Of a stretch of DNA of 50,257 nucleotides, positions 3,128-5,569 are shown one piece after another (the first letter of the stretch is position 1; every line of letters begins with the position of its first letter). The notes beneath the pieces were generated by a model. It saw only the letters and a list, made by a program, of their open reading frames with translations. It ran no database searches and was not told the origin of the DNA. The position numbers and the translations under genes were made by a program. This DNA is from Alphaproteobacteria bacterium (GTDB lineage: Bacteria > Pseudomonadota > Alphaproteobacteria > Micropepsales > Micropepsaceae): contig JAHFQC010000006.1 in assembly GCA_023259375.1 (NCBI GenBank), positions 113,635 to 163,891 of the forward strand. Direction: 5' to 3'.

Positions 3128-5569
3128 CTACACCATCTCCCGCTGGCGCTCGGAGAGCGGCGGGGGATTGTCGTGGATGCGGCGCGGGAAGTGGCAGCGC
3201 ACCAGGGTGCCGACGGCTTCCTTGCCCTTCTTGCCATTGCCGCTATCGATCTCGACCCAGCCGTCGTGCAGTTCGATGAAGCGGTTGACGAGCGCGAGGC
3301 CGAGGCCGGCGCCGCCGCGCTGACCGGCGGTCGATTTCGCCGAGAAGCTCTCGAAGGCGCGGGCGCGCATCTCCGGATCCATGCCGGGGCCGTCGTCCTT
3401 GACCCAGAGCTGCACGTCTTCGCCCTCGATGCGGCCGCCCAGGATGATGGTGCCGCCCTTGGGCGTGAACTTGAACGCGTTGGAAAGAAGATTGAATGCC
3501 ACCTGCCGCACGCGTCGCGCATCGGCCAGGAAGAAGCCGGCATCTTCGCCGCATTCGATCTTGAGATTGAGCCCGACCTTGCCGCCCCATTCGTGCGCGT
3601 GCGAGGCCACTTCGCTCAACATCGGATAGAGGTCGACGCGTTCGAGTTCGAGGCGCAGGCCGCCGGATTCGATCATCGCGAGATCGAGGATGTCGCTGAC
3701 CAGGCTGGTGAGGGTGGAGGACGCCTGCATGATGTCCTTCACATACCCGGTCTGGCGCAGATTGAGCGGTCCGAACTCCTCCGACGCGAGCAATTGCGCG
3801 AACCCGGCAATGGTGGTGATCGGCGTGCGCAGTTCGTAGGAAACGTGCTTGATGAATTCCGACTTCAGCCGGTCGGCGGCTTCGAACGCCTCGGCGCGCT
3901 CGCGCAAGACATGCTCGATGCGATAGCGGTCGGTAACATCGGAGAAGGTGGCGAGCGTGGCGCCATCCGGCAGCGGCGACAGGCCGAGTGTCAGGATGGA
4001 GCGATCGTTGCGCTCGAGTTCGCCCATGCGGCGGTCGGTTTCGGCACCGGCGACGATCGCCTGGATGAGGCGCTCCCACAACGGCAGCTCGCCCCACTTC
4101 TCGGCACAGGCCGCTGCGATGGCGCGTACGTGCGGCTCGCCGTCGAGGTCCTTGTCGGTGAGGCTCCACAGCTTGGCGAAGGCGGCGTTGTGCAGTTTCA
4201 GGCGGCCGTCGGGCCCGAACACCGCGACACCTTCCTGCAGCGTATTGAGGGTCGCCGACTGCACCTGGATCAGGGTCTTGTAGGAGGAGGCGAGCGACAG
4301 CTTCTCGGTCACGTCCTCATAAAGGAAGGTGAGGCCGCCGAAGGGATGCGGTTGGGCGACGACGCGCAGCGTCTTGCCGCCGGGAATGTGCCAGAGGTCT
4401 TCCGACGGATAATCGCGTGCGGTCTTGTAGAGATCGAGGCGTTCGCGCTTCCAGCCGTGGTAATCGCGCTGTTCGGGGAGTTTGCGTTCCTCGCGCAGGC
4501 GGTCGAGAATTTCGGCGTCGGTGGGACTGCGGTGAAGCCACTTCTCGGGCAGGTCCCACAGCGCGAGGTAGGCGCGGTTGTAGAAGCTCAGCTTCTGGTC
4601 GGGCCCGAAGATCGCCACCGCGGTCGCCAGCTTGTCGAGCGTGTCGGTATGAGCGTCGATGTGCTGCTTCAGCTTGGCTTCGCTCGCCGCAACGTCGGTG
4701 ACGTCGGATGCGGTGCCGACGATGCCGTTGTCGGTCGGAATCTCGGTGATCTGAAGGGCGCGGCGCTGGCCGGCGATCACGGCATAGCGCTTGGCTTCCA
4801 TCGGCTCGCCTTGCGCCCGCGCCGTGGCGGCGAGATCGCGTTCGGTCTTTTCGAGCGCGGTCTGCGAGCGGGCGGCGGTGTCGAGATCGGAGGCGCCGGT
4901 GGTTCCGAGGAAGGCGCGATTGCCCCAGACCAGCGACAGCGTCTTGTCGCGCAGCCACACCGGAACCGGCAGCGAATTCAGCACGCCGCGGAAATCAAGC
5001 GATTGCGCTTCCGGTGCCGGTTCGATCCACACCGCGGCAAGGCCGCCGACTGCGCGTCCGCGCAAAGTCACCGTGCGTCCGGTCGCATCGCGCGCCGGCA
5101 TGGAGAAGGGGACGCCGTGCGCGGAAAGATCGTCGAGGGCTTTCGATAGCGCCGGCGCGTCGGCACCCTTCAAGCACGAATCGAGTTGGGCTTCGGCGCC
5201 GCCGTAGGACATCGGCCCGTCGCTGTCGCGACCCCAGACGATCAGCGCATCACGGCAGACATCGAGCAACGCATCGCGTTCGCCCACCGCCGCACGCTGG
5301 CGTGCACCGGCATTCTTCAACAGGCGCTTCAGCTTGATCGAGTTCTTCTGCTCCACCAGCGCCCACATGCCGGCGGCAACGGCGAGAACCACTGCGCCCG
5401 CGGTGACCGCTGTGAGAATGACGCCAGTTTCATCAAGGGGCAGGGCAAAGGGCAGCGCCGAGTCTCCGGCCGCAGAAGCCGGACCCGTCGCAATCACGGC
5501 CGAAGCCGCTACCGAGAGGAGAAGTCTCCCGCGCATTACCCATGTTTCCGGTGTTCTTTTATGTCCCAT
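3128..5569 (-). CDS. divL: DivL-like PAS histidine-kinase homologue with Tyr at the phospho-site
   Basis: 813 residues. An N-terminal hydrophobic segment (about 13-34) and a second one (about 48-68) anchor it in the inner membrane. At least three PAS-like units follow (about 195-300, 310-425 and 440-560; note AVAIFGPDQKLSFYNRAY and GVAVFGPDGRLKLHNAAF). The dimerisation helix reads FIKHVSYELRTPITT: where kinases have SHELRTP, this has SYELRTP, with Tyr578. The ATP-binding part is intact (N-box NLLSNAFKFTPKGG, DDGPGM, GGAGLGLALV). Tyr in place of His is the hallmark of DivL, which in Caulobacter modulates CckA and so CtrA activity in the cell cycle. The assignment rests on this residue, the PAS count and the length. 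An alternative start at 5536 gives a cleaner signal-like N-terminus. Confidence 0.85.
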   Translation of the reverse strand: MGHKRTPETWVMRGRLLLSVAASAVIATGPASAAGDSALPFALPLDETGVILTAVTAGAVVLAVAAGMWALVEQKNSIKLKRLLKNAGARQRAAVGERDALLDVCRDALIVWGRDSDGPMSYGGAEAQLDSCLKGADAPALSKALDDLSAHGVPFSMPARDATGRTVTLRGRAVGGLAAVWIEPAPEAQSLDFRGVLNSLPVPVWLRDKTLSLVWGNRAFLGTTGASDLDTAARSQTALEKTERDLAATARAQGEPMEAKRYAVIAGQRRALQITEIPTDNGIVGTASDVTDVAASEAKLKQHIDAHTDTLDKLATAVAIFGPDQKLSFYNRAYLALWDLPEKWLHRSPTDAEILDRLREERKLPEQRDYHGWKRERLDLYKTARDYPSEDLWHIPGGKTLRVVAQPHPFGGLTFLYEDVTEKLSLASSYKTLIQVQSATLNTLQEGVAVFGPDGRLKLHNAAFAKLWSLTDKDLDGEPHVRAIAAACAEKWGELPLWERLIQAIVAGAETDRRMGELERNDRSILTLGLSPLPDGATLATFSDVTDRYRIEHVLRERAEAFEAADRLKSEFIKHVSYELRTPITTIAGFAQLLASEEFGPLNLRQTGYVKDIMQASSTLTSLVSDILDLAMIESGGLRLELERVDLYPMLSEVASHAHEWGGKVGLNLKIECGEDAGFFLADARRVRQVAFNLLSNAFKFTPKGGTIILGGRIEGEDVQLWVKDDGPGMDPEMRARAFESFSAKSTAGQRGGAGLGLALVNRFIELHDGWVEIDSGNGKKGKEAVGTLVRCHFPRRIHDNPPPLSERQREMV

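Follow-up and report, generated by a model that had tools for sequence, protein, structure and literature searches.

DivL is a sensor kinase that has become disabled and contributes to the timing of the bacterial cell cycle. In Caulobacter crescentus it is without kinase activity, and its DHp–CA module docks phosphorylated DivK (DivK~P), a preference determined by its PAS domains; DivL stimulates CckA when free and represses it when DivK~P is bound, according to the available part of the primary study (PMC4211667). Shortened and duplicated forms have also been described. In the accessible portions of the respective reports, DivL without a kinase domain is always associated with the absence of DivK (PMC2877005), Rhodobacterales carry a short DivL, with one species that combines it with DivK ascribed to gene transfer (PMC9430884), and many Rhizobiales and several Rhodobacterales carry two divL homologues (PMC8116508). 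Here we analyze a probable divL gene in a 50,257-nucleotide stretch of DNA (the window) from a Rhizomicrobium-like alphaproteobacterium, together with a kinase-less paralogue (P0002) elsewhere in the same genome.

The window protein, which includes KSEFIKHVSYELRTPITTIAGF, comprises a predicted membrane anchor, assigned by eye, followed by several PAS domains, a DHp and a CA domain identified with Pfam (Table 1). The HisKA and HATPase_c matches both exceed the Pfam cut-offs, and the N, G1, F and G2 boxes (LLSNAFKF, DDGPG, FESF, GAGLGL) can be recognized by eye, which bears out the sequence-only reading that the ATP-binding motifs are intact. That reading had also reported a tyrosine H-box within positions 3806–3850, and the SYELRTP motif with Tyr578 lies inside this interval.

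Table 1. Positions of the window gene, its domains and the kinase-less paralogue
Feature	Position	Strand	Basis
Putative divL, pseudo-histidine kinase, 813 aa	3128..5569	(-)	ORF list, Pfam, PDB and own-genome searches
Probable transmembrane helix, hydrophobic stretch, residues 49-72	5354..5425	(-)	Translation, by eye
PAS_8 match, residues 193-229	4883..4993	(-)	Pfam
PAS_7 match, residues 311-423 (best of 2 stretches)	4301..4639	(-)	Pfam
PAS_4 match, residues 441-550	3920..4249	(-)	Pfam
DHp (HisKA), residues 569-636	3662..3865	(-)	Pfam
H-box SYELRTP with Tyr578, codon TAC 3836-3838	3821..3841	(-)	Sequence and alignment
HATPase_c (CA), residues 683-797	3179..3523	(-)	Pfam
Kinase-less DivL paralogue P0002, own genome	G000:C154:29458-30975 = L073:9974-11635	(-)	Search with window protein

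The H-box tyrosine is not a chance feature. Searching the organism's own genome with the window protein gave 47 kinase-like places, of which 30 were fetched as loci and 17 weaker ones were left. The H-box was readable in 25 of the 30: 24 loci, some of them overlapping, have histidine, and tyrosine occurs only in the window gene; the loci without a reading are one that lacks a kinase domain (L002) and those missed by the motif (L025, L027–L029). A sequencing error at Tyr578 is unlikely, because the same tyrosine is present in orthologues from other genomes of the genus. Across an alignment of DivL kinase parts with 103 rows (102 of 142 collected ORFs and the window protein, with the window gene and some genomes represented twice), Tyr occupies the position in 85 rows and Phe in 16; Asp and Ser occur once each, and no row has His. 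The proposal that tyrosine is the signature of DivL thus holds for most rows but not as a universal rule. All 16 Phe rows have the altered H-box SFLFRDP; six come from genomes of the genus (L047, L055–L057, L059, L060) and ten lie on contigs of unplaced genomes (L086, L089, L092, L094, L101, L103, L105, L111, L112, L114). Separately, the DivL at L176 (G300:C187) has a stop codon at the tyrosine position, with the kinase part resuming in frame behind it, which may reflect either a mistake in the assembly or a genuine truncation.

The identification as DivL was examined in both directions. Against the PDB, the window protein matches the kinase region of C. crescentus DivL (4q20) best, at E 2.7e-41 (next 1.2e-28). 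In reverse, with this 235-residue kinase region as query against the own genome, the window gene ranks first (E 2.7e-42; next 3.4e-34), a best match both ways within the scope of a PDB search and an own-genome search with the kinase region only. Apart from the window gene, the genome has a single DivL-like place, the paralogue without a kinase part; no true DivL was found elsewhere in it. Candidates for all four expected partners are encoded in the genome. ChpT (PF10090) and CtrA (NF045991, 425.9 bits; cut-off 350) exceed their cut-offs. The CckA candidate scores 570.9 bits with NF046026, covering model positions 4–676 of 678, which is below the cut-off of 1000 and compares with 141.3 for the next place; its best PDB matches are 5idj and 5idm. 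DivK is represented by a candidate fragment of 70 residues at the end of a contig; its best PDB match is DivK 1m5t (E 1.2e-25; next 1.3e-9). Because of the matches both ways and the presence of these candidates, the original assignment to DivL stands. The concern that automatic naming would be vague was also justified: the 25 NCBIfam matches listed, of 76, are all below cut-off, and none is named DivL. Like Caulobacter DivL, the window protein has the H-box tyrosine and several PAS domains before the DHp–CA module. Among the four DivK-docking positions named in the available part of PMC4211667, R553 and T557 are kept, whereas Y562 is replaced by Phe and H579 by Tyr.

The gene could instead encode a common PAS sensor kinase with no relation to DivL whose histidine was lost independently, in keeping with the many kinases of the genome that match the window kinase part at 30–42% identity. 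We consider this highly improbable, as Caulobacter DivL ranks the window gene first, eight orders of magnitude ahead of the next match, and tyrosine is common to DivL from several orders (e.g. the Hyphomicrobium, Anderseniella and Faunimonas loci). Autophosphorylation on the H-box tyrosine is said to have been first proposed for Caulobacter DivL by Wu and colleagues in 1999, and the window protein, which has tyrosine in the phospho-acceptor position and keeps its ATP-binding motifs, might likewise be an active protein kinase. This seems very unlikely: Caulobacter DivL has no autokinase activity and binds nucleotide weakly, as far as the available text of PMC4211667 describes it, and DivL rows with Phe, Asp or Ser at this position exist; therefore, a phosphorylatable residue there is no general need.

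We conclude, with a probability of about 0.94, that the window gene is the divL of this Rhizomicrobium-like bacterium and would act as in Caulobacter, through DivK~P docking and CckA control. For the missing kinase activity, the binding of DivK~P and the action on CckA, we draw on the Caulobacter literature: the DHp–CA module would have lost self-phosphorylation and would dock DivK~P instead, while the PAS domains would set the DivK~P preference and relay the bound state to the hybrid kinase CckA. The CckA–ChpT–CtrA pathway would then be on with DivL free and off with DivK~P bound.

The paralogue P0002 is 554 residues long when read from its likely start (558 from the first ATG), shares 42% identity with DivL residues 53–555 and ends just past the last PAS domain. 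By Pfam it contains PAS domains only, without DHp and ATPase domains. All full copies in our paralogue alignment (A1) share one end point, and no kinase remnants were found behind the paralogue in the loci (tblastn, E 1e-8). Kinase matches in L064, L067 and L068 were rejected as remnants, being 2.5–6 kb off and parts of other genes. In a predicted structure of P0002 (mean pLDDT 82.3, pTM 0.41) we discern a membrane helix, four PAS-like folds and then a helix that is cut off where DHp would begin; this model matched only generic PAS proteins in the PDB. Some copies are shortened at the N-terminus (L071, L190, L191 and L192, the last at G022:C3:151378-152130), the matches of L191 and L192 beginning at residues 287 and 300 and covering PAS-C and PAS-D only.

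Within the genus, 22 of 69 genomes carry the paralogue, 19 as one ORF (416–634 residues stop to stop) and three as short or split matches (G343, G347, G019); G022 has a second, short copy. Its absence from the other 47 genomes marks it as accessory. It is present in 15 of the 48 genomes with a completeness of 90% or more and a contamination of 5% or less. Assembly contamination was dismissed as its source, given that full DivL and the paralogue occur together in three single-contig genomes (G028, G330, G350). It also occurs, as L185:6001-7656, in Rhizomicrobium electricum DSM 21034 (G329), whose DivL region of 17,440 bases matches the record of that strain without a difference.

To place the paralogue, we built a tree of the PAS part from 60 rows: 19 paralogues, 17 DivL of the genus and 24 sequences from other lineages, some of these outside rows being long-branched, and with full-length Caulobacter DivL left out. 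The paralogues form one clade (support 100/99) and the DivL of the genus another (98/98), and together they make up a single group (100/99) apart from the 24 other-lineage sequences. This topology therefore points to a single duplication in this lineage, followed by a single loss of the kinase part. The dN/dS values are 0.08–0.19 in five paralogue pairs and 0.12–0.17 in the DivL comparisons, with 0.20 for the kinase part of DivL; judged by these ratios, the paralogue is under purifying selection. Positions conserved to at least 90% in both DivL and paralogue number 61 overall, and 39 of the 207 positions of PAS-C and PAS-D are so conserved in both alike, which suggests a DivL-type partner for the paralogue.

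The short DivL of Rhodobacterales resembles P0002 in that the PAS part is kept and the pseudokinase is gone; in the available descriptions, however, it replaces full DivL and is tied to the loss of DivK (PMC9430884, PMC2877005), whereas P0002 coexists with both and, by our tree, was truncated after duplication inside its own lineage. Full DivL is retained alongside the paralogue in the genome of the window organism and in G028, G330 and G350, each a single contig. DivK is likewise not absent: a search with the 70-residue DivK candidate (E 1e-14) gave a DivK-like match in 14 of 14 paralogue-bearing genomes of the genus. The two-divL genomes of Rhizobiales and Rhodobacterales are similar in having two divL-like genes each; compared by description only, the available part of that report makes no mention of kinase loss or of fixK adjacency (PMC8116508).

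A class-wide search of 289 genomes at E 1e-40 matched 168. Thirteen places with shorter ORFs outside the genus were fetched among the matches listed, and four of these end past the last PAS domain (L171, L172, L173 and L179, in G282, G203, G105 and G280, respectively), with no kinase part in the approximately 3 kb fetched behind them. The others are either full or interrupted, by a frameshift, a contig end or, in L176, the stop codon. In G282, G203, G105 and G280 the kinase-less DivL is the sole match at E 1e-40. At the threshold of the DivK search, a DivK-like match is present in G282 and G203 and absent in G105, G280, G101 and G200; with two of the four kinase-less DivL genomes thus containing one, coexistence with DivK is not confined to the genus.

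The surroundings of the paralogue connect it with oxygen-related regulators. Among 24 paralogue loci, the upstream side is visible in 23, and in 19 of these the next gene upstream, in the same orientation, is a FixK-like Crp/FNR gene, 1–61 bases away in ten checked loci; the remaining four have none there (L062, L065, L072, L189). The FixK-like proteins score best in NCBIfam with FixK of Caulobacter, below cut-off. A FixJ-like gene lies within about 6 kb of the paralogue in 18 of the 24 loci, two of these having the DNA-binding part only, and a FixL-like kinase is nearby in seven. Three of the FixL-like sequences have, by eye, what we take to be the haem-PAS residues of FixL. A FixK-type box, TTGA-N6-TCAA, is not general upstream of fixK: it occurs as an exact match in only 2 of 19 loci, against a background of 1.4% of random 500-base windows; it is absent from the own-genome locus, where the best match has four mismatches. 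Some paralogue loci also have a CtrA-like regulator nearby (29–46% identity to the query), which may be an unrelated OmpR-type gene. Next to the own-genome paralogue, the ORF at L073:8534-9229 (+) has no Pfam match up to E 1, its C-terminal half resembling a degenerate receiver by eye, and about 4 kb from the paralogue, L073:2020-5954 (+) contains genes that look like cytochrome bo3 oxidase subunits, again by eye. In the literature searched, with most subscription journals outside its scope, we found no description of a kinase-less DivL adjoining fixK.

We put forward a bold reading, at less than even odds, in which the short DivL would have lost the DivK-docking pseudokinase and come under FixLJ–FixK, and would free CckA from DivK~P at low oxygen, so that a signal of low oxygen would reach the CckA–CtrA pathway. 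In Rhizomicrobium and its relatives, a duplicated DivL would have shed the pseudokinase and come under this oxygen circuit. When oxygen falls, FixK and the short DivL would be made together; through its PAS domains the short DivL would bind CckA or dimerize with full DivL, and by uncoupling CckA from DivK~P it would let oxygen supply override the cell-cycle input to CtrA.

The gene neighborhood is also what one would see if the paralogue were a DivL-derived PAS protein that acts like FixT, as a feedback regulator of FixL serving only FixLJ–FixK and off the CtrA pathway. In Sinorhizobium, fixT occupies a similar place downstream of fixK, and both the position directly behind a FixK-like gene in 19 of 23 loci and the FixL-like kinase in 7 of 24 fit such a role. 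The paralogue would then be a small regulator of the circuit, as is the FixL anti-kinase FixT (available part of PMC9430884). The same source presents FixT as a receiver-like single domain without PAS, however, whereas the paralogue has PAS domains only (Pfam) and keeps the PAS-C and PAS-D residues common with DivL; we regard the FixT-like role as possible but rather unlikely. That the paralogue is merely a decaying duplicate without function appears improbable. Its absence from most genomes of the genus, its faster evolution relative to DivL and the shortened N-termini of some copies point that way, but the dN/dS values of the five pairs, the common end point of all full copies and the retained gene order argue against decay.

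With the window gene, a well-studied pseudokinase is recognized in one more genus; the gene is otherwise an ordinary DivL and serves as a warning against naming such genes active sensor kinases. The paralogue matters more: it splits the PAS part of DivL from the part that reads DivK within one cell, as a natural truncation experiment. If true, the proposed link from oxygen to CtrA would contradict the rule that a kinase-less DivL means no DivK (available part of PMC2877005), to which the accessible text of PMC9430884 already holds one exception. In the type strain R. electricum DSM 21034 it can be tested whether the DivL PAS domains alone steer CckA beside full DivL, and whether the CtrA pathway receives an oxygen input.
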